From Campylobacteraceae bacterium (GTDB lineage: Bacteria; Campylobacterota; Campylobacteria; Campylobacterales; Sulfurovaceae), in NCBI GenBank assembly GCA_027068975.1, contig JALXFN010000107.1, forward strand, positions 1-48,937: 48,937 bases of DNA, in the 5' to 3' direction. Positions 3,950 through 39,146 of the stretch are shown here, one piece after another. Position numbers and translations under genes: made by a program. A model generated the notes under the pieces. That model searched no databases and was not told the origin of the DNA. It was given only the letters and a program-made list of their open reading frames with translations. Within the stretch, counting starts at the first letter, position 1, and each line of letters starts with the position of its first letter.

Positions 3950-4486
3950 TTATTTAACTTTAACACTATTTGATTTTAATAATTCATTTTCCAGTGATTC
4001 AATAAGAATCTTTTTAGATTTATACCTTTTACCTAAACTATCTTTAACAATAATTTGTATTTTTTCAGAAGAGATAAAATTATCTTTTAACTTTGAAAGA
4101 AAATATTTTAAATTCTCTTGTCTTTTATATAGTTCTCCTACTTCTAGCTTATAAGGAAATTTATCTGTACCATCCCTATGTAAAAGATACATATGGTCAC
4201 CTTCCCCCTGAATTAATCGAGGATATTTTATTAAGGGATTTTGAATAAATATTGGAATACTACCTATATTTAAAATATTAATTGATAACATTCTTACTCC
4301 ATAATCTAAAGAAATATCTTCATTTTTAAAACTAAGAGGAAACTCTATAGTTATTTCTAAACTTTTTTTATGGTCAACTATTCGGTTACGAATAATTAAT
4401 AAAAGAGTTGTAAGAGATAAAAATATACTAACAATCATTAAAAATAATTTTATTTCACTATCAGACAAATTTTGTATATATTCCAT
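3950..4486 (-). CDS. Membrane-anchored hypothetical protein of the LRR-McrBC operon
   Basis: I do not recognise a family. I place the start at the ATG at 4486 (178 aa), because AGGA lies six bases upstream of it; an ATG at 4522 in the same frame adds 12 residues but has no SD. A single transmembrane helix lies near the N-terminus (LFLMIVSIFLSLTTLLLII), followed by a ~145-residue, probably beta-rich, soluble domain. It is the first gene of a tight operon with LRR-mcrB and mcrC. That suggests a membrane-tethered sensor or effector for the nuclease system, but this is inference from position only. The upstream repeat at 4514-4593 may carry its promoter (TAAAAT/TTATAT on the minus strand). Confidence 0.6.
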   Translation of the reverse strand: MEYIQNLSDSEIKLFLMIVSIFLSLTTLLLIIRNRIVDHKKSLEITIEFPLSFKNEDISLDYGVRMLSINILNIGSIPIFIQNPLIKYPRLIQGEGDHMYLLHRDGTDKFPYKLEVGELYKRQENLKYFLSKLKDNFISSEKIQIIVKDSLGKRYKSKKILIESLENELLKSNSVKVK

Positions 4487-4513
4487 GTATATTCCTATTT
4501 CCTTCAAAAATTG

Positions 4514-4593
4514 TAAAAGCATGTTAAGCCTTTCGGCACAAATATAATTTTATGCAAGTTTGGTTTTGACGGTGCAATAGCAATTGCACCCTA
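4514..4593 (-). repeat. Island repeat copy A (hairpin-bearing, ~80 bp)
   Basis: On the minus strand it reads GTAGGGTG-hairpin (GGTGCAAT...ATTGCACC, 8-bp stem), then a conserved GTCAAAACCAAACTTGCATA spacer, then an AT-rich part and CCGAAAGGCTTAA. Near-identical copies lie at 5431-5500 and 6266-6334. The TAG inside its first GTAGGG is the stop codon of the PIN toxin gene at 4591-5079. Confidence 0.9.
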
Positions 4594-5079
4594 CGACTTC
4601 AACTTCTCAAAAAACACTTTTTCCAACTGCTCACTAACTCTCAATCCTTGCTCTTTAAAAAGTAAAAAATAGAGTTTTAACTCATCAAGAGTAATAAACT
4701 CTTTTCTATAATTCTCTATTAAAATACCCAAAACACCAACAATTCTAAGCCCTTGATTTAGAGCTATCTTTCTACCTTTTCGCTCATCTATAATAAGCAT
4801 TAAATTTAACTCAAGAGCCAAACTAATTGCTTCTACTTCACCTTTGTCAATTTTTAATATTTTGATTCTCTCTAAAGTAGCAGTATCAGTCACAGGCTTT
4901 ACTTCGAGTTTATCAAACTCTTTAATGCGATAATTAACAATATCCTCTTTTACCATCAACTCATCATAAACAGCTTTGGGAATATAGATTTTTTGAAAAA
5001 GATTAGAGAGCAGAGAGAAAGCGTCTGATTTGGCAAGAATAATAAGAGCCGTAGTATCACTAATTACAATATCATTCAT
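4591..5079 (-). CDS. PIN-domain (DUF3368-type) toxin, VapC-like
   Basis: This is a predicted ribonuclease toxin of a type II toxin-antitoxin pair. At 162 aa it is the usual size for DUF3368 PIN proteins. Acidic metal-binding positions expected for the fold are visible: SDTTALI at the N-terminus, KGEVEAI mid-protein and LIIDERKGRKIA further on. It lies 5 nt after the UPF0175 antitoxin gene, which is the standard antitoxin-first arrangement for this family. Its stop codon TAG is contributed by the repeat at 4514-4593. It is a paralogue of the toxin at 5498-5965. The RNA target is unknown. Confidence 0.85.
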   Translation of the reverse strand: MNDIVISDTTALIILAKSDAFSLLSNLFQKIYIPKAVYDELMVKEDIVNYRIKEFDKLEVKPVTDTATLERIKILKIDKGEVEAISLALELNLMLIIDERKGRKIALNQGLRIVGVLGILIENYRKEFITLDELKLYFLLFKEQGLRVSEQLEKVFFEKLKS

Positions 5080-5084
5080 AAAGA

Positions 5085-5384
5085 CTACTTAAACGCTCCA
5101 AACTCTTGCTCTAAATACTCACTATCTACACGTACAAAAGGAATATCATATTTTTTTAGAAGTGCCATGGTATCGGTTTTTGAAAGGTTTAATATATTGG
5201 CTACTTGCCCTAAAGACAACTCTCCTCTATCATAAGCTTTCAAAAGATTATACTCTTGGGTTTCAAGTCTTGAAGTACTTTGAAAAAGTTCTTTAATGGC
5301 TTCAATAAATTTGTTTTTGTCGTTATAAAATTTTGTCTCTAAAAGTGTAGTTATAAAAGAGTCTTGTATCTGTATGGTTTGCAT
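5085..5384 (-). CDS. UPF0175-family antitoxin
   Basis: The 99-aa protein has a helix-turn-helix-like segment, YDRGELSLGQVANILNLSKTDTMALLKKYDIPF, shown here in part as ELSLGQVANILNLSKTD; this layout is typical of UPF0175 antitoxins paired with DUF3368 PIN toxins. An AGGAG SD lies about six bases before the ATG, and a TATAAT box is at 5411-5416. Such antitoxins usually repress their own operon and neutralise the PIN partner; both roles are inferred here from the family and the pairing. Confidence 0.8.
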   Translation of the reverse strand: MQTIQIQDSFITTLLETKFYNDKNKFIEAIKELFQSTSRLETQEYNLLKAYDRGELSLGQVANILNLSKTDTMALLKKYDIPFVRVDSEYLEQEFGAFK

Positions 5385-5410
5385 AAATACTCCTCATTTG
5401 TTGATTTTTT

Positions 5411-5416
5411 ATTATA
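5411..5416 (-). promoter_or_regulatory. -10 box of the first PIN toxin-antitoxin pair
   Basis: Minus-strand TATAAT in the context TTTTTTCGCTATAATAAAA, about 27 bp upstream of the antitoxin ATG. The same string recurs before the other two modules (6245-6250 and, slightly changed, 6848-6853), so the cassettes share promoter sequence. Confidence 0.6.
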
Positions 5417-5430
5417 GCGAAAAAAGATTA

Positions 5431-5500
5431 TTAAGCCTTTCGGAAAAAATATAATTTTATGCAAGTTTGGTTTTGACGGTGCGATGGCAATCGCACCCTA
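5431..5500 (-). repeat. Island repeat copy B
   Basis: Second copy of the repeat. The hairpin reads GGTGCGAT...ATCGCACC, so relative to copy A both stem arms changed together (T-A to C-G at the same pair), which argues that the stem is maintained. The repeat runs into the promoter of the next module. Its GTAGGG supplies the TAG stop of the PIN gene at 5498. Confidence 0.9.
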
Positions 5501-5965
5501 CAAGTTTTCTCCACAAATCTCTAAAACCTTTTCTATTAATTTTTGAGAAATATAGACCTCTGATTTTTGAATTTCATCTAAAAAAGTCTTAACTCTTTCA
5601 ATATGCCCTTTCTCTTTTGCTTTAACAAGAATACCCAAACTACCAATAACCTTTACACCATTTAAAGAAGCATACTTTTTAGCACGATTATCATCTATAA
5701 GCAAGACATCAGCATCTAACTTTTTATAGAGAGTTATCGCTTCGAGTTCACCCAATCCAAGCCCTAGATGAGTTAATGTTAAATCAACCTGTTTTACTTT
5801 ACCTTGTAAAAATTGTCTTAGTTTATTACTTTGAGGTTTACCTATTTGCGTTACTTCATCAAAAACTGCTTGTGGAATATAGAGATTATCATAAAGTTTT
5901 TCTAAAAGTTCTAACTGATTGACAACAGCTAGTGCTACCAATGCTGAACTATCTCCAATAACCAT
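5498..5965 (-). CDS. PIN-domain (DUF3368-type) toxin, second copy
   Basis: A 155-aa paralogue of the toxin at 4591-5079. It has GDSSALVALA at the N-terminus, the acidic LGELEAITL motif mid-protein and LLIDDNRAKKYA near the C-terminal third, giving the Asp/Glu cluster of a PIN ribonuclease. Its start codon overlaps the antitoxin stop by one base (TAATG), so the two are translationally coupled. The stop is the TAG of repeat B. Divergence from the first toxin implies two modules of different specificity, not a recent tandem duplication. Confidence 0.85.
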   Translation of the reverse strand: MVIGDSSALVALAVVNQLELLEKLYDNLYIPQAVFDEVTQIGKPQSNKLRQFLQGKVKQVDLTLTHLGLGLGELEAITLYKKLDADVLLIDDNRAKKYASLNGVKVIGSLGILVKAKEKGHIERVKTFLDEIQKSEVYISQKLIEKVLEICGENL

Positions 5966-6216
5966 TATATGCCCTTTAATGCGTTCAATTCAGCCTCAAT
6001 ATCATAATCATCAATAGCAGGAATCTGATGTTCATTAAGAAGTTTCATAAAAGAGTAAATATCCATCTCTAAAAACTTAGCACCTTGACTAATAGATATT
6101 TTATGATTTTTATAAAGCTCTAATGTCAATTTTTGCTTGGCAATATTTACCAAATTTTGAGAACTTTCATTAATGCTTAAAAAAAGTTCATCAGGTATAT
6201 TTATGGCTAGTTGCAT
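5965..6216 (-). CDS. UPF0175-family antitoxin, second copy
   Basis: The 83-aa protein begins MQLAINIPDELFLSI and contains the short helical segment KISISQGAKFLEMDIYSFMKLL, shown here in part as ISISQGAKFLEMDIYSF, followed by the EHQIPAIDDYD tail that matches the UPF0175 pattern. GGAG lies shortly upstream of the ATG and TATAAT is at 6245-6250. It overlaps its PIN partner by one base. Confidence 0.8.
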   Translation of the reverse strand: MQLAINIPDELFLSINESSQNLVNIAKQKLTLELYKNHKISISQGAKFLEMDIYSFMKLLNEHQIPAIDDYDIEAELNALKGI

Positions 6217-6244
6217 TATGGACTCCTTATTTTTGATTTGTTTT

Positions 6245-6250
6245 ATTATA
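6245..6250 (-). promoter_or_regulatory. -10 box of the second PIN toxin-antitoxin pair
   Basis: Minus-strand TATAAT in the same TTTTTTCGC-TATAAT-AAAA context as at 5411-5416, directly downstream (in transcription) of repeat C. Confidence 0.6.
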
Positions 6251-6265
6251 GCGAAAAAAAATTAT

Positions 6266-6334
6266 TAAGCCTTTCGGCACAAATATAATTTTATGCAAGT
6301 TTGGTTTTAACGGTGCAATAGCAATCGCACCCTA
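6266..6334 (-). repeat. Island repeat copy C
   Basis: Third copy, differing from copies A and B at a few positions only (for example GTTAAAACC for GTCAAAACC). One stem pair here is mismatched or G-T (GGTGCAAT / ATCGCACC). It supplies the TAG stop of the antitoxin-like gene at 6332. Confidence 0.9.
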
Positions 6335-6544
6335 CGAGTTCAATTTCAAGGGGTTTTGCCCATTATTCATCAAATTAATTAAAGTTCGTAACGCTTCATT
6401 TACAGACTTAGCATCAGGAAAAAATTTCATTACATCTGTATCTAGTTTAACAATATTGACACCCTCTTTATAAGCTTGTGCATACTTTCCTCTAATACCA
6501 TTACTAAAATCATACTCTTCTAACATCTCATCTTTTTGGTTCAT
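6332..6544 (-). CDS. Small BrnT-partner protein, probable antitoxin
   Basis: A 70-aa protein of the LEEYDFSNGIRGKYAQAYKEG type, with a C-terminal VNEALRTLINLM helix, a family often found beside BrnT toxins. Its ATG is two bases after the intended stop of the brnT-like pseudogene, and GAGGAG in the end of brnT serves as its SD. It is therefore probably the antitoxin of the module, although the BrnA family as usually defined looks different. The reading frame is intact, so an antitoxin may remain while its toxin is broken. Confidence 0.65.
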   Translation of the reverse strand: MNQKDEMLEEYDFSNGIRGKYAQAYKEGVNIVKLDTDVMKFFPDAKSVNEALRTLINLMNNGQNPLKLNS

Positions 6545-6546
6545 GA

Positions 6547-6826
6547 TTAATACTCCTCATAAAATTTTTGTTCATGCTTTGTTGCTTTTCTTGCTGAAAT
6601 AATTCGTATAGATTCTCTTCGTTCAACATGAACAACAACCGAAAGTTTTAAATTGCTTAGATTGACCAATCAAAATGAGTCTATCTTCATCATCACTATG
6701 TAAAGGGTCATCAATTGTAATTGAAAGTTCATCAGCAAACGCTGTTGTTGCTTCTTCAAAGGTTATACCATGTTTTCGTTTATTTATTTTAGCTTTTTTT
6801 TCATCCCATTCAAACTGTAAAGCCAC
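6547..6826 (-). pseudogene. brnT: brnT-like ribonuclease toxin, frameshifted
   Basis: The N-terminal two thirds is a clear BrnT/DUF497 toxin: FEWDEKKAKINKRKHGITFEEA, given here in part as FEWDEKKAKINKRKHGI, then DDPLHSDDEDRLILIGQSKQF. In that frame the protein stops at 67 aa with an aberrant tail. Moving one base at the AAAA run near 6653-6656 restores the family C-terminus: VVVHVERRESIRIISARKAT, then KHEQKFYEEY and a stop at 6547. So a +1 A explains everything. The start is GTG at 6826, six bases after AGG. This is either a true inactivating mutation or a homopolymer sequencing error. Confidence 0.85.
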
Positions 6827-6847
6827 ATTTATCCTTTTGTTTGATTT

Positions 6848-6853
6848 ATTATA
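6848..6853 (-). promoter_or_regulatory. -10 box of the brnT module
   Basis: Minus-strand TATAAT in TTTCGATATAATAAATC, resembling the promoters of the two PIN modules, 21 bp before the GTG start. Confidence 0.5.
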
Positions 6854-6878
6854 TCGAAAGATATTAAAATAAAATATT

Positions 6879-7571
6879 TCATAAATTCACCATAACAGAA
6901 TCATTTACCATTTTAATCGAAGTTCCAAAATAGTCATTAAGGTTGGTTTCATGAAAGAACTTTTTAGAAGTGTCAAAAAAAGTAATTTTACCTTCATTGA
7001 TGCAAAGTACTTTATATCCTAAACGGTAGGCGAGGTTTAGGTCATGAGTAATAATAATCTTAGATTGAAAGATGTTACTTTTAAGTAATGAAAAAATATT
7101 ACGACTTTTTTGTGGGTCTAGGTTGGCTGTGGGTTCATCAAAAATAGTAATTTTTGCATTATGAAGTACGGCTGTAGCTAACATGGTAAGTTGTTGCTCA
7201 CCAGAGCTTAGTTGTTGACAAGGTTTGTTTTTTAGGTGGTCTATCTCTAAAAGTTTTAGCATGTTATTAGACTCTAAAAGTGTGTGGAGACGGCTTAGAT
7301 TAAGGTATTCGTTAAGGGTGATGTACTCATCAAATATCTCTAGTTTTGCAGGAATATAGTTAATGTACTTTGTTCGTTCTTTCACTTTTACTTTGTGTAA
7401 CTCTTGTCCGTGAAGAGTAACACACGAAGAGGGGGTAATACCACACAGTACCCTAGCAAGGGTGGATTTTCCTGCACCGTTTGAGCCTAAAATAATGAGG
7501 TTTTCATTTGTTTTTAGTTCAAAAGAGATATTTTTTAAAATTTCATTACTATAGTTATCAATTGTCAGCAT
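6879..7571 (-). CDS. BtuD/FepC-type ABC transporter ATPase
   Basis: This is the cytoplasmic ATPase of a cobalamin or siderophore importer, 230 aa. Walker A is GSNGAGKST, the Q-loop region is YINYIPAKLE, the ABC signature is LSSGEQQ, Walker B is ITIFDEPTANLDP and the switch His lies in IITHDL. It follows the lipoprotein gene by 9 nt and shares its direction with the binding-protein and receptor genes. No intact permease is adjacent: the only candidate lies 6 kb further on, beyond the island, and is truncated. It belongs to the family of small (~230-250 aa) FecE/BtuD ATPases; the substrate is inferred from the BtuB-like receptor. Confidence 0.88.
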   Translation of the reverse strand: MLTIDNYSNEILKNISFELKTNENLIILGSNGAGKSTLARVLCGITPSSCVTLHGQELHKVKVKERTKYINYIPAKLEIFDEYITLNEYLNLSRLHTLLESNNMLKLLEIDHLKNKPCQQLSSGEQQLTMLATAVLHNAKITIFDEPTANLDPQKSRNIFSLLKSNIFQSKIIITHDLNLAYRLGYKVLCINEGKITFFDTSKKFFHETNLNDYFGTSIKMVNDSVMVNL

Positions 7572-7580
7572 TATCTACTT

Positions 7581-8336
7581 TTATTTTGTTTGATTTGTGT
7601 CATTTTTAACTTCTGTTTTTTCTATTTCTTGCTTTTTCTCTGTCTCTTTTTTGGCTTTAACCTCTTCTGTAACGGCTTTTACAGAGTTTTTAACAGCCTC
7701 AATACTAATGGGTGCTTTGGTAGAGGCAAGTGCTGGTTGGTGGATGTTTTGTTGCATTGCTTTTAATGCTCTATTAATCTCAATAAGCCCATACTCTTCA
7801 GCACACTGTTTGTCGTAGGTTAGCATATCTTTTTGAAATGCTTCTAAAGAGTACTCTTTTTCAGAGAGTTTTTGTTTCTCTTTCATTTTTTTAGCATAGC
7901 GTTCTCTATTAATCTCAACACCTCTAAAAATTTCTGGAGAGAGAGCCTGTTTATAAGAGTTTTGATTCTCTATTTTATCCTCTTCTCTTGAGACCATTAC
8001 TTTGGCAGTATCGGTAATGAGTTTCATTCCAAAGAGGCTACTGACTGTATCGAATATGTTCATGTATAAACTGCTATTTTCTGCTTCTGTAGTGGCTTGA
8101 ACTTGTGGCGTATTTAAATAGTTTTCACACTGCATGTCTGATTTCAATATAAACTCATCCATATAACTGTTGCGATTTTTTAATTCACTTATGAAACTTG
8201 TTGTGTTGGTTTTAAATGTTAGTGCTTTTTGGTTGTTGTTATTGCTTAAATTTGAAGGTATTAGAGGGTTCGATACACATCCACTTAAAAGTAATCCTGC
8301 TGTAGCCATTGTTGTTAATATAATTTTTCTTTTCAT
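7581..8336 (-). CDS. Lipoprotein of unknown function in the corrinoid uptake operon
   Basis: The 251-aa product has a signal sequence ending in the lipobox LLSGC (Cys ~20), so it is probably a lipid-anchored envelope protein. The mature part is mostly helical and charged, with a Lys/Glu-rich C-terminal tail (EVKAKKETEKKQEIEKTEVK). I do not recognise a family. I chose the ATG at 8336, seven bases after AAAAAGG, over a GTG one codon earlier. It sits between the binding-protein and ATPase genes of the uptake locus and is probably co-transcribed with them. Confidence 0.7.
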   Translation of the reverse strand: MKRKIILTTMATAGLLLSGCVSNPLIPSNLSNNNNQKALTFKTNTTSFISELKNRNSYMDEFILKSDMQCENYLNTPQVQATTEAENSSLYMNIFDTVSSLFGMKLITDTAKVMVSREEDKIENQNSYKQALSPEIFRGVEINRERYAKKMKEKQKLSEKEYSLEAFQKDMLTYDKQCAEEYGLIEINRALKAMQQNIHQPALASTKAPISIEAVKNSVKAVTEEVKAKKETEKKQEIEKTEVKNDTNQTK

Positions 8337-8393
8337 CACACTACCTTTTTCCCATACTTAAATAAGTATACTTTATTATTAATATGGAATGAA

Positions 8394-9230
8394 TTAATTT
8401 TTAGGATTTATGCGTTTTTTATAATCCTCTAACATCTCTCTAAAATCTCTTAAAAAGAGTACCAAACGGTCACTGGGCATTGAAGCATAAATGTTGTTGT
8501 TAACATAGATAGAGTTTGTTTTAGAGGCACTTATAGGTAACTCTAACCAAGGTTTGATAAGCTCTTTATTGTCAACGCCATCTGTTTGACAACGTGCTAA
8601 AAGTAGGACAATATCAGGGTTAGAAGCTATGATGTTTTCCATGTTTAAAATGGGTTGACCTTTTCGTTCTGATTGTAGGGCATTTGTGTTATTGCTTTCG
8701 TTAATGATTTCATCAAAATAGAGGTTCTGTCCTGCCACAAAAACTTGTTTGTCTAATTTGATGTAACGTCCAAAAACAATGAGGAGTTTTTTCTTAGTCA
8801 CTATATTTTTTAAATTTTTGAGTTCATCATTAATATTTTTAACGATTTTTTTAGCACTCTCTTTTTTATCTAAAATATCACCAATTTCTATAATAGATTT
8901 TTTAATATTTTCAAGTTTGTCTATTTTTATAATTTTAGTTTTAATACCAAGCTGTTCAAGTTTTAGGCTAAGTTTGTGGTTGTTTTGTTGCATAATGACC
9001 AGCGTAGGTTGAAGTGAAACAATTTTTTCTAAAGAGGGGCTAAAGTAGCCACCCACTTTGGGAACCTTTATAGATGCTTTAGGATAGAGTGCGTAGTCTG
9101 TGTTGCCAACTATTTGTTCACCTGCATCTAGTGCAAATATAATTTCGTTGATTGATGGGCTTAGAGCGATGATTCGTTCTTGGGCATTTAGGGTTAAGGT
9201 TATAAATAGTATTAGTAATATTTTATTCAT
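8394..9230 (-). CDS. BtuF-like periplasmic corrinoid/siderophore-binding protein
   Basis: The substrate-binding component of the importer, 278 aa from the ATG at 9230. A signal peptide (MNKILLILFITLTLNA) is followed directly by ERIIALSPSINEIIFAL, the classic start of BtuF-type mature proteins. Further motifs are VGGYFSPSLEKIVSLQPTLV and ASNPDIVLLLA. An in-frame extension to 9284 would be encoded partly by the repeat at 9264-9372 and lacks an SD, so I rejected it. The gene lies downstream of the TonB-receptor gene, and cargo is expected to pass to the ATPase/permease pair. Vitamin B12-type corrinoid is the best guess; haem or siderophore is possible. Confidence 0.82.
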   Translation of the reverse strand: MNKILLILFITLTLNAQERIIALSPSINEIIFALDAGEQIVGNTDYALYPKASIKVPKVGGYFSPSLEKIVSLQPTLVIMQQNNHKLSLKLEQLGIKTKIIKIDKLENIKKSIIEIGDILDKKESAKKIVKNINDELKNLKNIVTKKKLLIVFGRYIKLDKQVFVAGQNLYFDEIINESNNTNALQSERKGQPILNMENIIASNPDIVLLLARCQTDGVDNKELIKPWLELPISASKTNSIYVNNNIYASMPSDRLVLFLRDFREMLEDYKKRINPKN

Positions 9231-9263
9231 TTTTTTGCTTTTATTTGTAATTGAATTCATAAA

Positions 9264-9372
9264 CCGTAGGTGTGACCGTGTCACACGTCAAAATAAACAT
9301 GGCATAAATAAAAATTATAAATATCCATTTAATTCAAACCGAGATTTAATGTGTGACATGGTCACACCTACG
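9264..9372. repeat. Complete palindromic element D with inverted ends
   Basis: The ends CGTAGGTGTGACC and GGTCACACCTACG are perfect 13-bp inverted repeats, and each side folds on itself (GTGTGAC...GTCACAC). The inner CGTCAAAATAAACATGGCATAAA matches the spacer of the island repeats. The element lies between the TonB-receptor stop and the binding-protein start. Confidence 0.85.
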
Positions 9373-9384
9373 TATAAATTTATT

Positions 9385-11244
9385 TTAATATGTCAGTTTC
9401 ATTCCTGCATAAACAGCTCTTGGGCTAGAGGCATAACCATAAACAGTTTGGTAATCTTTGTCTGTAATGTTATCTACTTTTCCATAAAGACTCATATGTT
9501 GGTCTATTTCATAGTTGGCTGTGAAGTTGGCAACGGTATATTTACCTGTTTCTACTTTTGCATAAGTTGCGAAGTCTGTGTCTTCTCTTTTGCCTATATA
9601 TTCACCATTGAGACCAAGATGTAAATTGTCTATTCCATAGTAGTCAAGACCAAATTTAAGAGACTGGTCTACCCGTCTTTTTAAATCTTTCCCCTTATGG
9701 TCTTTTGCATCAAGTTTGGTATAACCTAAAGAGAGTACTGCAACATCAGAAATATCTGCATTATACGCCACTTCAAAACCTTTTATTTTTGATTTTCCAT
9801 CAACATTGGCATATTTGCTTGTTGCAAAGTCATAATCTATAATGTCTTCAATTTCATTGTTAAAGTAGGTTAAGCTTAAATCTTTATATGTAATGGTTAC
9901 ATCATACCCTTTGGTGATTTCTGGTTTCATATTGGGATTGCCATAGAAAGAGTAGAGTTGAAATGATGAAGGTACATTATAAGCTGTTCCATAGTTTATA
10001 GATGTACTTAACCCTTCTATATTGGTATGTATATGTTTAAGACCTATTTTCCCTGTGGTTTTGTTGTCAAATTCATCATATTTGTCGTATCGTAATGATT
10101 GAGTAAATATAGTCTCTCCTCCTACTAGACCGTCAAACTTGTTGTAGTTGGTTAGAAAAACTCCTTTGTTTGTAAATGATTTGTTAATACCTGCTTTGTC
10201 TTCAAACTTTTTATAGTCACCACCAATAAGAAGAAAACTATTGTTCATATAAGGTACTTTAGATTTTATACCATACTCTTTTACTTCACCCTCATACTCT
10301 TTAGTAAATTCTTGTGGATAGCTTCTCTCAAATGTAGATTTTTTAGCGTAAATGTCCACTTCATTAAAGCTATCTATATGGTTAAAGTTAACAGATGAGA
10401 GGGTACTTTTGTTGGAACTTTCTGCTTGACTGTTTGCTGATTTTACTCTATTTAAGACCGAATTAGGGTAGACACCATCATAAACACTTTGGTCATAGTT
10501 TGTTGTGGCATCTATGATACTGTGTGAAATGTCTATTTTGTTGGTTGGCGTAATATTGAACCCTGCTTTTAAATTGCTACTGCTGTTTTTGTACCCATCG
10601 TCTTCAAAGTTTTTTAAATCTTGCCCTTTGGGAGCTTGTGCTGTAAATCCATCACTATCAATTCTGCTTTGTGAAGCTTTAACATAGAAGAGCTCATTTT
10701 TGTATGAAGCAGCAACATTGCTTGTAGTTGAGTTGAAACTACCAAACTCTTGTGATGCATGGAAGTTTAGTCCATCTTTTGCACCTTTAGTTGTAATGCT
10801 AATAACAGCAGCAGCTGCATCGGCACCCCAAACACCTGACTGGGCTCCTTTAAGAACTTCTATACGTTCTATGTCTGAAGCCATAAGATGTGCAAAAGTT
10901 GCACCTGAACTGTTACTAATATCGTTGTATCTAACACCATCTATAAGCACTAGAACTTTATTGTTATCAAATCCTCTTAATCTTACAGTTGATGTTGTTC
11001 CTAGTCCACCATTTGAGTTTATGCTAACAGCAGTTAAAGAGTTAAGTGCTTGAGTTACGGTTGTGTAATGTCGCTCTTCAATTTGTTGAGCTGTAATAAC
11101 ATTTATAGTTGAAGTCACATCTTCTAGCTTTTGAGTTGTCTTTGTTGCTGAAGTTACTAAAATATCTTCAAGCTTTTCATCTGCGATGAGGTTTGAGCTA
11201 AGTAGTAGCGTTGTAATTAGACTGAGTTTTATTGTTCTATTCAT
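9385..11244 (-). CDS. btuB: BtuB-like TonB-dependent outer-membrane receptor
   Basis: This receptor brings corrinoid-like substrates across the outer membrane using TonB energy. It is 619 aa (E. coli BtuB is about 614). After a signal peptide ending near NLIA, the TonB-box-like EDILVTSA precedes the plug. The plug carries STVRLRGFDNNKVLVLIDGV and DIERIEVLKGAQSGVWGADA, with AAAAVISITTK closing it. The remainder is a ~22-strand barrel ending in aromatic VYAGMKLTY (terminal Tyr). It is the first large gene of the uptake cluster, followed by the BtuF-like gene. I saw no cobalamin riboswitch (no GCCACTG box) in its upstream region. The family is firm; the substrate is moderately sure. Confidence 0.85.
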   Translation of the reverse strand: MNRTIKLSLITTLLLSSNLIADEKLEDILVTSATKTTQKLEDVTSTINVITAQQIEERHYTTVTQALNSLTAVSINSNGGLGTTSTVRLRGFDNNKVLVLIDGVRYNDISNSSGATFAHLMASDIERIEVLKGAQSGVWGADAAAAVISITTKGAKDGLNFHASQEFGSFNSTTSNVAASYKNELFYVKASQSRIDSDGFTAQAPKGQDLKNFEDDGYKNSSSNLKAGFNITPTNKIDISHSIIDATTNYDQSVYDGVYPNSVLNRVKSANSQAESSNKSTLSSVNFNHIDSFNEVDIYAKKSTFERSYPQEFTKEYEGEVKEYGIKSKVPYMNNSFLLIGGDYKKFEDKAGINKSFTNKGVFLTNYNKFDGLVGGETIFTQSLRYDKYDEFDNKTTGKIGLKHIHTNIEGLSTSINYGTAYNVPSSFQLYSFYGNPNMKPEITKGYDVTITYKDLSLTYFNNEIEDIIDYDFATSKYANVDGKSKIKGFEVAYNADISDVAVLSLGYTKLDAKDHKGKDLKRRVDQSLKFGLDYYGIDNLHLGLNGEYIGKREDTDFATYAKVETGKYTVANFTANYEIDQHMSLYGKVDNITDKDYQTVYGYASSPRAVYAGMKLTY

Positions 11245-11302
11245 TTTGTTTCCTTGATATATGTTACTTAGGTTTGGTAATACCGAACATTATTAATATG
11301 TT

Positions 11303-11479
11303 TTACAGTAAATAATAAGCGTACAGATAGGGAGGAGAAGTCTTATGTTCAGGGGTTTTAAAGGCATACTTATGGTACTTGTAGTTTGCGTCAATTGTAC
11401 ATAATTTAAACAATGTTGAATACATAGCAATAATAGCTAATGAAAAGTAACGTTGTTTATAACCTTTTAAATGTTTCAT
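11303..11479 (-). CDS. 58-aa small hypothetical protein upstream of the TonB receptor
   Basis: An ATG-to-TAA frame of 58 aa fills most of the 335-bp gap between the receptor gene and the divergent M23 peptidase gene. It starts MKHLKGYKQRYFSLAI, has a hydrophobic stretch (FSLAIIAMYSTLFKL) that could be a membrane segment, and ends in an unusual aromatic tail, KTSPPYLYAYYLL. The low-complexity-free composition and position 58 bp before the receptor start suggest a real gene. There is, however, no good SD upstream, and I do not recognise the family. The remaining gap holds the two divergent promoters. Confidence 0.5.
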   Translation of the reverse strand: MKHLKGYKQRYFSLAIIAMYSTLFKLCTIDANYKYHKYAFKTPEHKTSPPYLYAYYLL

Positions 11480-11546
11480 GTGCGAAGTTTACTTAAAAAA
11501 TCTTATAGTTATATAATGTTACTTTGAGCTTTTAGTTAGCATAAGT

Positions 11547-11552
11547 TATAAT
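11547..11552 (+). promoter_or_regulatory. -10 box of the M23 peptidase-Nudix operon
   Basis: TATAAT in AAGTTATAATTGATA; transcription should start near 11559, leaving a 20-nt leader that contains the AGGAG SD at 11569-11573. Confidence 0.55.
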
Positions 11553-11578
11553 TGATATAACTGACTATAGGAGAAATT

Positions 11579-12784
11579 TTGAGGAGTATTGGTTTACGTA
11601 GGGTCGTCGTGTTATTGTTACTTTTATCAACGATAACATTTGCTGCAAAAGTAAAGCGTTTGGCATGGGTAAACGGTATGAGTTTCAAAACTTATCTTCA
11701 AAAACATAATGTCCCCAAAACTGTTTTAGATGAGTTAGATGAAGATGATGCTCTTATTGTATCAGATGTAGAGAATTGTCGAAGTTATTATGAACTTATT
11801 GCTAGTACAGGGGTACTTTTACAGGCACTTATTCCTGTTGGTGAGGAGTTGCAACTTCATTTGTATAAGACACATAGAGGTTATAAATTAGAGGTGATTC
11901 CTATAGAGTATCAGGAAGATACTTATATTGCTCTACTTAAGATAGATAGTAGTCCTTATGGAGATATTGTTAAAAAAATCAAGAATAGACGATTAGCCAA
12001 TGAGTTTACTCGTCTTCTTAAACATAGTGTGAATTTTAGAACGATTAAAAAAGGTGACCCTTTAGCTATTGTATATACTCAAAAAATGCGTCTTGGTCAG
12101 CCTATAGGTGTCCCAAATATAAAAGCTGCTATGTTGGAGACAGCTGGTAAAAAGCATTATGTTTTTAAACATACTGACCATAAGTATTATGATGAAAATG
12201 GTAAAGTTCTTATTAAAAAATATATGAGGAGACCTCTTAATCATATAAGGATTACCTCAAAGTTTACAAAGAGACGGTTTCATCCTGTCTTAAAACGATG
12301 GAAAGCCCACCACGGAACAGATTTTGGTGCAAAACGTGGTACACCTATCTTAGCAGCTGCAGATGGAAAAGTCATATTTGCTGGTCGAAAAGGTGGGTAT
12401 GGTAAGGTGATTAAGATTCAACATAAAGATAATTATGTAACTCTATATGCTCATCAGAGTAGATTAAAGGCAAAACTAGGAGAGTATGTATCTGCAGGGC
12501 AAGTTATAGGTTACGTAGGAAATACAGGTCGAAGTACAGGGGCTCATTTGCACTTTGGACTCTATAAAAATGGACGTGCTATAGACCCCATGCAAATGGT
12601 AAAATTTTCTACCGATGGATTGACAGGAAAAGGGAAGAGAGCATTTATAGCAAGGAAAAGAAAATATACTAAGATAATAGATGAACTGTTTAAAAATCAA
12701 ACACCTTCTCAAGTTTGGAATACAGTTAATGATATTGGTGTCTCTCCTGAGATGAAAAACTATTATCAAAATAGAGGATGGTAA
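11579..12784 (+). CDS. M23-family peptidoglycan DD-metallopeptidase
   Basis: This is an exported zinc peptidase that trims peptidoglycan cross-links. It is 401 aa from a TTG start placed five bases after AGGAG. The N-terminal segment (VVVLLLLLSTITFA) is a signal peptide. The LytM/M23 domain lies at about residues 225-340, with HHGTDFG supplying His and Asp zinc ligands and GAHLHFGLY supplying the HxH pair. A region before it resembles the OapA/LysM-like N-terminal domains of Campylobacterota cell-shape peptidases (Csd/Pgp type). A structural or shape role is likely. The Nudix gene starts within its stop codon (TAATG). Confidence 0.88.
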   Translation: MRSIGLRRVVVLLLLLSTITFAAKVKRLAWVNGMSFKTYLQKHNVPKTVLDELDEDDALIVSDVENCRSYYELIASTGVLLQALIPVGEELQLHLYKTHRGYKLEVIPIEYQEDTYIALLKIDSSPYGDIVKKIKNRRLANEFTRLLKHSVNFRTIKKGDPLAIVYTQKMRLGQPIGVPNIKAAMLETAGKKHYVFKHTDHKYYDENGKVLIKKYMRRPLNHIRITSKFTKRRFHPVLKRWKAHHGTDFGAKRGTPILAAADGKVIFAGRKGGYGKVIKIQHKDNYVTLYAHQSRLKAKLGEYVSAGQVIGYVGNTGRSTGAHLHFGLYKNGRAIDPMQMVKFSTDGLTGKGKRAFIARKRKYTKIIDELFKNQTPSQVWNTVNDIGVSPEMKNYYQNRGW

Positions 12785-13350
12785 TGAAAAATATAATAGA
12801 AGAGTTTAAACTTCAACCCTTAGAAAATGCAAATTTTGTAAAGACGGCATTGGCAACATACTGTCAAAATGGAGTAGAGAAATCATGGGAGATTGTAGAG
12901 TCACATGACTCTGTAGCTATTTTAATCTATCATACAGAACGAAAATCTTTTGTTTTAGTAAAGCAGTTTAGACCTCCTGTATATCATAGAAATAGTGATG
13001 GTATGACAGTAGAGTTGTGTGCAGGTCTGATTGATAAAGATAAATCTTTAGAGCAGATAGCCAAAGAGGAGATAGAGGAGGAGTGTGGCTTTAATGTTCC
13101 TCTTGAAAATATAGAGCGTATAACTAAAGTTTTAAGCTCTGTTGGAACTTCAGGTGTTAGTCAGGTTATCTACTATGCAGAGGTTGATGAGTCTATGCGA
13201 GTTAGCCAAGGTGGAGGCATAGAAGATGAGCAGATAGAGGTTGTTGAGATACCTGTAAGCGAAGCAAAAGAGTTTATGTATGATGAGAGCATAGGTAAAA
13301 CGGTTGGGTTGATGTTTGCTATTTTATGGTGGTTTGACCGTAGGGTATAG
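12784..13350 (+). CDS. Nudix hydrolase, ADP-ribose/UDP-sugar pyrophosphatase type
   Basis: The 188-aa enzyme is predicted to cleave nucleoside-diphosphate sugars to a nucleotide and a sugar phosphate. The Nudix box is visible as GLIDKDKSLEQIAKEEIEEE followed by CGF; it has KE where the consensus has RE. The start at 12784 overlaps the upstream stop and has GAGG six bases before it, which fits better than the in-frame ATG at 12778. The last codons, encoding RRV and the TAG stop, lie in the left end of repeat element E, so that element has shaped the C-terminus. Confidence 0.82.
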   Translation: MKNIIEEFKLQPLENANFVKTALATYCQNGVEKSWEIVESHDSVAILIYHTERKSFVLVKQFRPPVYHRNSDGMTVELCAGLIDKDKSLEQIAKEEIEEECGFNVPLENIERITKVLSSVGTSGVSQVIYYAEVDESMRVSQGGGIEDEQIEVVEIPVSEAKEFMYDESIGKTVGLMFAILWWFDRRV

Positions 13351-13438
13351 ACCCCGTCTACACCGACAAAACCAAAATAGCATAAATTAAATATTTATCA
13401 TTTTTAACACGGTGTAGTTGGGGACTACAACCCTACGG
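13338..13438. repeat. Complete palindromic element E with inverted ends
   Basis: Perfect 8-bp terminal inverted repeats CCGTAGGG and CCCTACGG. The left arm contains TATAGACCCCGTCTACA, which folds only partly; the right arm has GTAGTTGGGGACTAC. The inner ACCGACAAAACCAAAATAGCATAAATTA matches the spacer of the island repeats. The element fits exactly between two convergent genes, whose stop codons lie in or next to its ends. Confidence 0.85.
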
Positions 13439-14740
13439 TTATTTCTTCAAAGCCTCAGCAATCAATTCCAACGGATTTTTAAAAATCGTTTCAACATCTG
13501 CATTGTTCATTGCTTCACTTAGCTGAACTCTACAAGCAGAACACTCAGCACTTACATAGTGAGCTTTTGTCTCTTTTATCATGGCTGCTTTGGGTTTTCC
13601 TGCTGCCTCGGCAAAGTGGAACTTCTCTGTCTGCATGGTGACTCCACCAAACCCACAACATCTATCTGACTCACTCATCTCTACTATTGGGTAGTTAGGA
13701 GCTAAAAGGTTACGAGGTTGTTTGTAGATGTTTTGAACCTTTTTAGCGTGACAGGGGTCATGGTAAGTAACCGTTGTATCAAAAGTTCCTTTTGTTTTTA
13801 AAAGTGCTTGTAGTTCTGTATTGTCATCTAGCCACTCTGTAGCCATAAATATTTTCTTGGCTACTTTTTTAGCACGTGCTTCCCACTCTGGCATGTTATG
13901 ATTTTTGAAAAAGACTTGCCAGTCATGTTTAACCATGGCAGAACAGGTAGCTTCAGGAATAAGCATGGCATCACACTCATCCATAAAACTCTCAAAGTAC
14001 TCTATGTTGGCTTTTGTCATACGCTCAACAGAATCTACAGCTCCTGTAAAGTAGGCAGGGGCTCCACAACAGAGTTGCTCTTTTGGTATAAATATGTCAA
14101 TGTTTAGCTCTTTTAATATCTCAACCAAAGAGTCACCAATTCCTGTATAGTTGTAGTTACCAAGACAACCAATAAAGAGTGCCACACGTATATTTTTCTT
14201 CTCTTGGTTTGGTGCAGGTATCTCTTCTGGATAGCTATTTAAAAAACTAATTTTTGACATAGAAGGGAGCAGTCGTCCTTTTTTGACCATTGGCATTCTA
14301 AATCTAGCTTTTAGTCCTCTTTCTTTTTCATCTTCAGCTAAAGCACATGTTTTAAACATAAAGCCAAACTTCATTACTATGTCCATTACTTTACGATGCT
14401 CTAAAAGATAAAAGGCAATTTTTTTAAACCATGCAATACCAAACTTATCTGCAATATCAGCACGAACCTCTTCTATAACCATGTCAGTAGGTAGGCTATT
14501 GGGACAGACTTCGGTACATGCTGTACAGAGGAAACAGCTCTCAAAAATATCTTTTGCATTTTTGTCCAGCTCTAGGTTTCCTGCTTGGTACTGTCCTAAT
14601 AGGTCAATAAATCCACGAGGAGAAGTTACTTCATCGGCATTGACTTGGTGAATGGTACAGACAGGTATACACTTTCCACATTTGACACAGTCGTCTGATG
14701 TTGCTTGAAAGTTAAAAATATCTTCTGGTTTTTTTGTCAT
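13439..14740 (-). CDS. Fe-S oxidoreductase subunit, GlcF/HdrD type
   Basis: The 433-aa protein has two N-terminal 4Fe-4S motifs, CVKCGKCIPVC and CFLCTACTEVCPNSLP, and two C-terminal cysteine-rich CCG domains (LCCGAP near the middle and DPCHAKKV...RCCGFGG). This is the arrangement of GlcF, the glycolate-oxidase iron-sulfur subunit, and of heterodisulfide-reductase-like electron carriers. No flavoprotein (GlcD) partner lies next to it, so it may serve another dehydrogenase. It is read in the same direction as hemN and argF, with repeat element F between it and hemN. Confidence 0.82.
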   Translation of the reverse strand: MTKKPEDIFNFQATSDDCVKCGKCIPVCTIHQVNADEVTSPRGFIDLLGQYQAGNLELDKNAKDIFESCFLCTACTEVCPNSLPTDMVIEEVRADIADKFGIAWFKKIAFYLLEHRKVMDIVMKFGFMFKTCALAEDEKERGLKARFRMPMVKKGRLLPSMSKISFLNSYPEEIPAPNQEKKNIRVALFIGCLGNYNYTGIGDSLVEILKELNIDIFIPKEQLCCGAPAYFTGAVDSVERMTKANIEYFESFMDECDAMLIPEATCSAMVKHDWQVFFKNHNMPEWEARAKKVAKKIFMATEWLDDNTELQALLKTKGTFDTTVTYHDPCHAKKVQNIYKQPRNLLAPNYPIVEMSESDRCCGFGGVTMQTEKFHFAEAAGKPKAAMIKETKAHYVSAECSACRVQLSEAMNNADVETIFKNPLELIAEALKK

Positions 14741-14751
14741 TTATTTCTCAC

Positions 14752-14823
14752 TGTAGGGTGCAATTGCTATTGCACCATGATTATATTATTTGTAAGTGGT
14801 GTGATAGCAATCACACCCTACGG
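14752..14823. repeat. Short palindromic element F
   Basis: GTAGGGTG at the left and CACCCTAC at the right form the ends. The left half folds as GGTGCAAT/ATTGCACC, as in island copy A, and the right half as GGTGTGAT/ATCACACC. The conserved spacer of the other copies is reduced. It lies between the hemN stop and the Fe-S gene start. Confidence 0.85.
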
Positions 14824-14838
14824 ATTCTTTGAATATAT

Positions 14839-16206
14839 CTAAACCGTCTTAGAAAATGCTTTTTTACTTTGTGCGTATTTTTTCATGTAGGCATCAAATG
14901 GCATAGCAATATTTCTTATTAAAAGTGTTCCTGTGGTACTAACCGATATTTTATCATCTGTTATAGTAACCAATTCTGCATCTACAAACTCTTGTAAAGC
15001 TTCTAATGCATCAGAGAAATACTCTTTAAAATTAATGTCATGCTCTCTTTCTACACGTTTCATATCAATAGAGAAGTTTGCCATCAGTTCCATAATGACG
15101 GCTTTTCTTAGAAAGTCATCATCATCTAATACTACACCTCTTTCAAAGGGAAGTTTCCCTTCATCTAGCCTCTCTTCATACGCTTTCATATCTTTTGTAT
15201 TTTGAGCATAGTAACGCTTTCCTTCACCGATGCTTGTTAGACCAATTCCTACTAAGTTTGCACCACCTTTTGTGGTGTAACCTTGGAAGTTTCTATGTAG
15301 TTCACCTTTCTCAATGGCTCCAAAGAGTTCATCTTCTGGTTTAGCAAAGTGATCCATACCTACCATTTTATATCCATGTTTTTCAAAAAAGTCAATGGTG
15401 TATTGAAAAATTTGTAGTTTAACATCAGGGGTAGGTAGAGTGGTTTCATCAAACTTACGCATGGTTTTCATAAGCCAAGGTACGTGAGCATAGTTAAAGA
15501 CAGCTACTCTGTCAGGGTTGAGTTGGGTCGATAGCTCTAGGGTCTTTTGAAATGTCTCTAATGTTTGGTAAGGTAAACCATAGATGAAGTCGGTATTAAT
15601 AGAGTTGATACCATATTTACGTGCCAGTTCAACAGCCTTTTTAGTTAGCTCAAGTGGTTGAACACGGTGAATCTCTTTTTGTACTTTCTCATCTAAATCT
15701 TGCACACCAAAGCTAATTCGGTTAAAGCCATGTTTTTGGAACACTTTCATCTGCTCTTCATTGAAATATCTTGGGTCAATTTCACAAGAGATTTCAGCAT
15801 CACTGCTCCAGTTAGGGAATTTTGACTTGATATAAGTAACAATTTCATCGAGTTCAAAGGCTTTATAAAAAGTGGGTGTTCCACCACCAAAGTGAAATTG
15901 AATCACTTCACGATTGGTATCTATGTGTTCGGCTAAAATATCAATCTCTTTTTTTAAGTAGTCAACATAACGACTTAGTTTCTGCTCTTTTGAAGTAAAG
16001 ACAACATTACATCCACAGAAGTAACAAGCACTTCTACAGAAGGGGAGGTGAACATATAAAGAGAGTTTTTCTGTAGAGTTCTCAAGGAACTCAATGTATT
16101 TATCATGTTTAAAATCATTGTTAAACTCTAAAGCTGTAGGGTACGAGGTGTATCTAGGTCCTGGTTTAGAGTATTTTGAAAACTTCTCAAAATCTATATT
16201 GCTCAT
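14839..16206 (-). CDS. hemN: Oxygen-independent coproporphyrinogen III oxidase
   Basis: This radical-SAM enzyme converts coproporphyrinogen III to protoporphyrinogen IX in haem synthesis without oxygen. It is 455 aa, matching HemN (E. coli 457). The cluster motif CRSACYFCGC is present in YVHLPFCRSACYFCGC, with FHFGGGTPTF after it and YGLPYQTLETF mid-protein. The start codon shares one base with the argF stop (TAATG), so argF and hemN are co-transcribed. Another haem gene, hemB, is at 20249. The full length and the extra Cys in CxxxCxxCxC favour HemN over HemW. Confidence 0.93.
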   Translation of the reverse strand: MSNIDFEKFSKYSKPGPRYTSYPTALEFNNDFKHDKYIEFLENSTEKLSLYVHLPFCRSACYFCGCNVVFTSKEQKLSRYVDYLKKEIDILAEHIDTNREVIQFHFGGGTPTFYKAFELDEIVTYIKSKFPNWSSDAEISCEIDPRYFNEEQMKVFQKHGFNRISFGVQDLDEKVQKEIHRVQPLELTKKAVELARKYGINSINTDFIYGLPYQTLETFQKTLELSTQLNPDRVAVFNYAHVPWLMKTMRKFDETTLPTPDVKLQIFQYTIDFFEKHGYKMVGMDHFAKPEDELFGAIEKGELHRNFQGYTTKGGANLVGIGLTSIGEGKRYYAQNTKDMKAYEERLDEGKLPFERGVVLDDDDFLRKAVIMELMANFSIDMKRVEREHDINFKEYFSDALEALQEFVDAELVTITDDKISVSTTGTLLIRNIAMPFDAYMKKYAQSKKAFSKTV

Positions 16207-38850: not shown

Positions 38851-38925
38851 TGGTGACCCCTAGGAGACTCGAACTCCTGTAACATGGATGAAAACCATGG
38901 ATCCTAACCGCTAGACGAAGGGGCC
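38851..38925 (-). tRNA. tRNA-Glu (anticodon UUC), copy 1
   Basis: The minus strand gives a 75-base cloverleaf from GGCCCCTTCGTCTAGCGG to the encoded CCA. The anticodon arm is CATGG-TTTTCAT-CCATG with UUC, and the T-arm has GTTCGAGTC. The acceptor arm GGCCCCT pairs with AGGGGTC. Confidence 0.95.
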
Positions 38926-38955
38926 ACTAAATGTAAAAAAAGTACAAGTTAAAAA

Positions 38956-39030
38956 TGGTGACCCCTAGGAGACTCGAACTCCTGTAACATGGATGAAAAC
39001 CATGGATCCTAACCGCTAGACGAAGGGGCC
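38956..39030 (-). tRNA. tRNA-Glu (anticodon UUC), copy 2
   Basis: Identical in sequence to the first copy over all 75 bases, and 30 bp away from it in the same orientation. Both encode CCA. The tandem pair is probably one transcript. Confidence 0.95.
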
Positions 39031-39146
39031 ATCAATAGCTTGTGGACGAAATTATAGCTAAGTATTCTTAATCTAATATAAAACCAACTAAAAATATTTA
39101 TAGCATAAATTACGTGATATTTGTTATAATAAAAAAAAGGATAAAT

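Follow-up and report, generated by a model that had tools for sequence, protein, structure and literature searches.

Three short palindromic elements, D, E and F, lie between positions 9,264 and 14,823 of a 48,937-nucleotide stretch of DNA from a Campylobacteraceae bacterium of the family Sulfurovaceae (contig JALXFN010000107.1; the whole stretch is called the window hereafter), and they raise the question of what kind of element they are and how they came to lie at the ends of genes. The initial annotation had placed them in a single palindromic family with three repeats of a nearby island, A, B and C, without having a name for the kind. The kind is the repetitive extragenic palindrome (REP) and its paired form, the REPIN (REP doublet forming hairpins), with the REP-associated tyrosine transposase (RAYT, or TnpA-REP). 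We hold with high confidence that D, E and F are REPINs and that A-C are REP singlets (remnants or half elements), all of them non-autonomous and moved by RAYTs that are specific for one flavour of stem. The element structure, the copy number, the covariation of the stems, the RAYT genes flanked by hairpins of a single flavour, and the presence, absence and turnover of elements at orthologous sites are shown directly; that the RAYTs make the moves is inferred.

D, E and F are pairs of hairpins with perfect or near-perfect stems, in which each hairpin is directly preceded by GTAG and GTAG is outermost at both ends. Read directly in the sequence, the termini are GTAGGTGTGACCGTGTCACAC ... GTGTGACATGGTCACACCTAC for D, GTAGGGTATAGACCCCGTCTACACC ... 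GGTGTAGTTGGGGACTACAACCCTAC for E and GTAGGGTGCAATTGCTATTGCACC ... GGTGTGATAGCAATCACACCCTAC for F, and the inverted ends that had been described for these elements are outward-facing GTAG hairpin pairs. GTAG directly 5' of the stem fits the REP rule, which asks for GTAG or GTGG 0-2 nt 5' of a 7-20 bp stem with a short loop (quoted in PMC6006769). A mechanical scan of the window for GTAG followed by a 7-10 bp stem returned nine sites, eight of them in elements A-F, compared with 1.05 ± 1.03 in 200 dinucleotide shuffles. The description of A-C as half-elements also held, as they retain one hairpin and the inner tag described below. The same is true of the stop codons flanking E, which had been placed in or against its ends: that of a NUDIX gene (12778-13350) occupies 13348-13350, within the left hairpin, and that of the minus-strand gene on the other side (13439-14740) lies 3 bp past the right end. 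Two other assignments were tried and rejected. In the CGTC-tagged REP class CGTC is unpaired and the stem starts with A-T pairs, whereas here the C of CGTC is the last paired base of stems that start with G-C. An IS200/IS605 element was set aside because D, E and F are non-coding, measure 69-106 bp, have inverted ends and hold no transposase gene.

Table 1. REP and REPIN features of the window (stem flavours are numbered F1, F2 and so on).
Feature	Position	Strand	Remarks
Element D, REPIN, flavour F2 (GTAGGTGTGACC[AG]TGTCACAC)	9266..9371	+ (set by tag)	inner tag at left end
D left REP hairpin	9266..9286	+	F2 pattern search and hairpin scan
D right REP hairpin	9351..9371	-	F2 pattern search and hairpin scan
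Element E, REPIN, flavour F1 (TAGAC/GTCTA)	13340..13436	+	
E left REP hairpin	13340..13364	+	F1 pattern search and hairpin scan
E right REP hairpin (GTAGGGTTGTAGTCCCCAACTACACC)	13411..13436	-	direct reading; missed by the flavour pattern because of one extra T
Element F, REPIN, flavour F3, no inner tag	14753..14821	not assigned	
F left REP hairpin	14753..14776	+	F3 pattern search and hairpin scan
F right REP hairpin	14798..14821	-	F3 pattern search and hairpin scan
A, single REP, flavour F3, then tag	4571..4594	-	TAG 4591-4593 is the stop of PIN toxin gene 4591-5079
B, single REP, flavour F3, then tag	5478..5501	-	TAG 5498-5500 is the stop of PIN/DUF3368 gene 5498-5965
C, single REP, flavour F3, one stem mismatch	6312..6335	-	TAG 6332-6334 is the stop of small ORF 6332-6544
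Degenerate REP-like hairpin TTAGGTTTGGTAATACCGAAC, near flavour F5	11268..11288	+	

To count genomic copies we searched the 2.78 Mb genome with flavour patterns, which gave 49 matches for F1, 28 for F2 and 38 for F3, all reversed controls being empty. After fetching the loci and removing duplicates, at least 126 distinct hairpin units of all flavours were found at 87 sites. These counts come from the pattern searches; a whole-genome covariance model search gave at least 84 matches with 150 of 1684 candidates scored. The 87 sites comprise 35 head-out pairs (three of them single palindromic units read on both strands), 49 lone units and three other groupings, without any head-in pair. Both units of a pair share one flavour class in 34 of the 35 cases, and the remaining pair combines two F1 variants. 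The inner spacer that had been proposed to link D and E to the island repeats stood up in part. Its first portion, CG(T/A)CAAAA followed by AAA, recurs across the genome, with 27 matches to GTAGG, 8-30 nt and CGNCAAAANNAAA and none to the reversed control; the GCATAAA portion is weaker and a minority feature, with GCATA present within the next 22 nt in 12 of 43 tagged units.

These REPINs resemble those of Pseudomonas fluorescens SBW25 (Bertels and Rainey 2011, PMC3116915), which, in the sections of that paper available to us, are likewise inverted REP pairs around a spacer, extragenic, present in many copies, marked by compensatory changes and linked to a RAYT. Unlike those, the present elements occur in several flavours within one genome and often have an inner tag, G[TAC]CAAA, at one of their ends. 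As the tag stands at one end, many elements are asymmetric and their inversion becomes visible.

The suggestion that the stems are under selection for structure agrees with their covariation. In a set of 23 distinct tagged hairpins from this genome, pairing holds for 94.9% of stem cells, compared with 63.4% after shuffling, seven of nine stem pairs have changed on both sides, and the covariation score of 0.677 (0.133 shuffled) was reached by none of 500 shuffles, which ignore relatedness. Sliding the stem by 1-3 columns lowered pairing to at most 51%. Compensatory changes also separate orthologous copies, the left stem of element F being CAATTGC/ATTG here and TGATTGC/ATCA in relative G012.

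Six Y1_Tnp genes were found in the genome, and two of them, on contigs C6 and C137, are RAYTs according to NCBIfam NF047646 (REP-associated tyrosine transposase; 152.8 and 154.4 bits for a cut-off of 80). Their alignment keeps H58, H60, W111, Q112 and Y132, which we take to contain the HUH motif and the catalytic tyrosine. The C6 RAYT is flanked on both sides by F1 hairpins, its gene ending inside the downstream REP, and the C137 RAYT is flanked, likewise on both sides, by F3 hairpins. RAYTs flanked by F2, the flavour of D, were found in congeners (L066, L067 and G047), and G047 has both F2 and F4 RAYTs. A broader set was drawn from named genomes by keeping 80 of 162 RAYT relatives, mostly labelled Sulfurovum or Campylobacterales, which makes a Sulfurovum-like host probable. 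Of the 80, 74 have a GTAG hairpin within 300 bp and 53 have hairpins on both sides. GTAG hairpin density falls from 4.9 per kb near RAYT genes to 0.16 per kb at distances above 800 bp. Across the 64 hairpin-bearing RAYTs, distances between the proteins correlate with those between the hairpins (r = 0.41, matched in 0 of 2000 permutations). No GTAG hairpin was seen at the distant Y1_Tnp matches among L070-L089 (L081 and L082, which are close relatives, being excluded from this set), apart from one weak case, L087. Neighbouring Y1_Tnp genes L002-L004 also had no GTAG hairpins, and L001 has a hairpin pair at just one of its flanks.

A rival reading takes the elements for miniature inverted-repeat transposable elements (MITEs) of an ordinary insertion sequence, either of the DDE type or of IS200/IS605 with its own TnpA, and not of a RAYT. 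Scattered copies with short inverted ends would in general suit MITEs. RAYTs are themselves related to the TnpA of IS200/IS605, and both RAYTs of this genome match NF033573 below its cut-off. We consider this explanation extremely improbable: GTAG precedes each hairpin, no target duplication was found at the filled and empty site pairs inspected, and RAYTs are the only enzyme genes seen with these hairpins on both sides. The ends of IS200/IS605 elements, moreover, are not inverted repeats of each other. The likeness to IS608 and other IS200/IS605 elements lies in HUH Y1 transposase chemistry, hairpin recognition and a guide sequence 5' of the hairpin (treated in the accessible part of PMC8266576), the difference being that here the ends are inverted copies of one hairpin and the transposase gene is outside the mobile unit.

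Some observations concern other RAYTs and other repeats. L131 (G000:C59:9389-9609) is a RAYT remnant with an internal deletion that adjoins hairpins of another flavour, GTAGGGTCGATTTATCGACC. RAYT relatives of the same clade occur in Melainabacteria/Gastranaerophilales and Brachyspira (L392, L399, L400, L404, L407 and L416), making distant transfer possible; they have GTAG hairpins, those of L400 and L404 being weak. Another Y1_Tnp gene (L004, G000:C101) is surrounded by palindromic repeats of a second class, CATGGACTTTAGTCCATG and its variants.

The expected excess of elements at gene 3' ends was recovered, with 92 gene 3' ends and 70 gene 5' ends facing elements. The 3' ends counted are those of open reading frames (ORFs) of at least 80 amino acids, a threshold that leaves the 70-amino-acid ORF ending in C outside the 92. 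Of these 3' ends, 22 end precisely on the TAG of GTAG (21 with TAG and one with TAA from a mutated GTAA) and four on a TAG inside the F1 hairpin, compared with 28 in all at +1 to +15. By way of comparison, TAG is the stop in nine of the 34 other window genes of at least 150 amino acids. Two sites, L022 and L158, have one element that gives both convergent neighbours their stop, and A, B and C each provide the stop codon for the final ORF in a small toxin-antitoxin-like operon. Since the peak at TAG (22 of 92) could by itself pool truncations of any length, we compared the lengths of homologues. For seven of eight TAG-supplied gene ends that have a homologue without that element, the length equals that of at least one homologue. 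These are L021 (end FVKL), L016 (DYCL), L018 (WFF changed to WFS), L030 (KRIIR to KRVAQ), the minus-strand gene of L022 (SSF to SSL), L023 (VV to VL) and L148, which ends in SFA as in G010 and is one residue longer than in G001, G012 and G013. The exception is the plus-strand gene of L022, three residues shorter than its homologue. With seven of the eight comparable ends at the length of a homologue, the elements sit mostly at the stop codon and do not, as a rule, truncate genes.

Mobility and empty sites in relatives had also been predicted, and element-free orthologous sites do exist. We queried 22 sites and retained 20 as informative, L008 and L011 being dropped for want of a usable two-sided comparison; insertion points were judged by eye, between species, in fragmented assemblies whose contigs often break at repeats. 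At least one relative is element-free at 13 of the 20 sites (D, F, L012, L013, L014, L016, L018, L021, L022, L023, L030, L138 and L148), and a relative carries another flavour at 12 (D, E, F, L010, L013, L014, L016, L017, L020, L138, L148 and L158). Site D holds the same element in G045 and another flavour in G047 and G003, and it is empty in G046 and G011. At site E, G007 has a different flavour in the opposite orientation at the same place, its right border at the same base and its left border 1 nt off. At site F, G012 has the same flavour and G013 has flavour F1 3 bp off, while G029 and G032, from other families, are element-free. The borders of elements that differ in flavour fall on the same base on both sides at L148 and L014 and on the left at L158 and L016. 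In L017 the other flavour of the relative sits inside a remnant of the first, and at L138 and L020 it occupies another part of the gap. L010 is filled here and in nine of nine relatives; four or more flavours or mixtures occur there, and in two relatives another kind of repeat lies alongside.

Inversion in place was seen at L018: between unchanged flanks, G045 and G047 carry the inner segment of this genome as its reverse complement. The inner segment of L022 is likewise inverted in G045 and G046; their right flank agrees with that of this genome, and on the left the sequence belongs to another gene end. A lone GTAG-hairpin-CTAC unit occupies L030 in two relatives, in contrast to the pair present here. 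Three congeners (G045, G046 and G047) have a palindromic repeat of a different class, that of CATGGACTTTAGTCCATG, at the L023 site. Palindromic repeats resembling CGTTCCCACCGTCTCGG and GTTACGAAGCTCTAG were also observed beside or inside congener REPIN sites, at D (G003), L010 (G011 and G021), L138 (G021) and L020 (G007).

Could the elements instead be fixed RNA structures, such as terminators, 3' protectors of mRNA or translation brakes, that are selected at gene ends and do not move? Their bias towards gene 3' ends and their covarying stems would suit such a role, and REPs within 15 nt of the stop lower translation in E. coli according to work cited in the consulted part of RepRanger (PMC12306157). 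We nevertheless regard fixed structures as very improbable in view of the element-free relatives, the differing flavours at shared sites, the inversion in place and the REPs that flank RAYTs. An intrinsic terminator was rejected because positions 9000-15000 hold three terminator-like sites, compared with 2.9 in shuffles, and the sole such site in D, E or F has five pairs and overlaps the right hairpin of E. A known RNA family was rejected as well: an Rfam search of positions 4300-15000 gave three sub-threshold matches and none at the gathering score, the best being mir-2011 on element F (33.6 bits for a gathering score of 80), which we took as a chance match on a palindrome. The elements may have a 3' function on top of their mobility.

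A separate question is how the sites turn over, which leaves the identity of the elements unaffected. Different flavours at one site may be independent insertions into a stop-codon hot spot and not replacements of a resident, and we give this a little less than an even chance. Such a hot spot would agree with the position of the stops: of the 54 gene 3' ends that come within 15 bp of an element edge, 22 use the TAG of GTAG. L148, L158 and L016 are stop-codon sites of this sort, and at each of them flavours differ at one and the same base. L148 points the other way. There this genome and G045, whose flanks are 94-96% identical, differ only in flavour and spacer and share 9 nt adjoining the element that are missing in the inspected element-free congeners, which suggests that an older resident was swapped for another flavour. 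Tentatively, and with rather less than even confidence, we propose that gene ends in this genus act as REPIN docking slots: a RAYT would insert the element at the stop, GTAG would replace the stop codon with protein length kept, and transposases would later exchange or flip the resident, the slot outliving its occupant.

In the mechanism that we envisage, a RAYT would move the REPIN as single-stranded DNA, each RAYT recognising its own stem flavour. GTAG would guide cleavage at a pyrimidine-rich border; a cleavage or target site at the element border is suggested by the C or T that precedes GTAG in 106 of 119 units (CC in 37). RAYTs are described as recognising GTAG and the stem on single-stranded DNA and cleaving at a short pyrimidine-containing site, and in Marinomonas GTAG chooses the cleavage dinucleotide (both in the part of PMC8266576 consulted). 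Since a REPIN has a GTAG hairpin on each strand, either could be processed, which would account for inversion in place. Elements settle at gene 3' ends, where the TAG of GTAG often serves as the stop with a hairpin directly after it, and the occupant of a site can at a later time give way to another flavour or be inverted. To judge from the E. coli literature, a hairpin directly 3' of the stop probably affects how stable the mRNA of the upstream gene is or how its translation terminates.

Several points weigh against RAYT-mobilised REPINs as the explanation. Many elements have no inner tag (it is present in 43 of 125 units), and 49 of the 87 sites appear as lone units by flavour patterns, which miss some partners, as the right hairpin of E illustrates. 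No F2 or F4 RAYT was found in this assembly, only F1 and F3 having one here. Six of the 80 RAYT relatives have no GTAG hairpin within 300 bp, and the scan found none at two near-full-length RAYT genes of G045, on C52 (with an in-frame TAG) and C222. Finally, polymorphism between species testifies to gain or loss and not to the enzyme, so that we infer RAYT-driven movement.

The kind of element is already known, as REPINs, GTAG REPs and RAYT/REPtrons, including in Sulfurovum; what we add is the comparison of orthologous sites. Among the features that the accessible text of Di Nocera et al. (2013, PMC3733652) gives for GTAG REPs and REPtrons, a GTAG tail, head-head dimers, RAYTs flanked by their own REPs, location near ORF 3' ends and TAG stops often derived from GTAG termini are all found here, and the epsilonproteobacteria and Sulfurovum NBC37-1 are named as carriers. 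Beyond what that text describes are the match of RAYT to flavour for these flavours, the conserved inner tag, the filled, empty, swapped and inverted sites and the conserved C-termini. Orthologous RAYTs of related strains flanked by different REP classes, that is flavour turnover, are reported in the portion of Nunvar et al. (2013, PMC3686654) consulted; that turnover is at the RAYT locus itself, whereas ours is at ordinary REPIN sites away from RAYTs. The literature searched, which misses many subscription papers, contained no systematic swapping or inversion of REPINs in place at ordinary sites. The nearest precedents in the texts available are Nunvar et al. (PMC3686654) and a remark by Di Nocera et al. 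(PMC3733652) on Xanthomonas recB, where REPs lie at about the same site.

Elsewhere in the window, positions 4500-6850 hold three small toxin-antitoxin-like operons in series, separated by near-identical units of about 100 nt that consist of a REP, the tag, a GCCGAAAGGC mini-hairpin and a TATAAT-like stretch. These units look like a local duplication, because the core of about 32 nt 3' of the REP was found nowhere else among the 416 fetched loci. The toxin-like ORF of the third operon (6623-6826), presumably BrnT-like, stops early and an overlapping ORF (6547-6669) appears to continue it, as if frameshifted. Two identical 76-nt copies spaced by 105 nt at 38851-39031 are candidate tRNA genes by their look.

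In all, this analysis settles the identity of the palindromes. A REPIN can become the source of a gene's stop codon, and at two sites it does so for both genes of a convergent pair, the protein changing little or not at all. The movement of REPINs is still mostly deduced indirectly, and this genus offers many empty, filled, swapped and inverted orthologous sites between close relatives. With several RAYT-flavour pairs in one genus and a tag that reveals orientation, the choice of target, replacement and inversion become testable.

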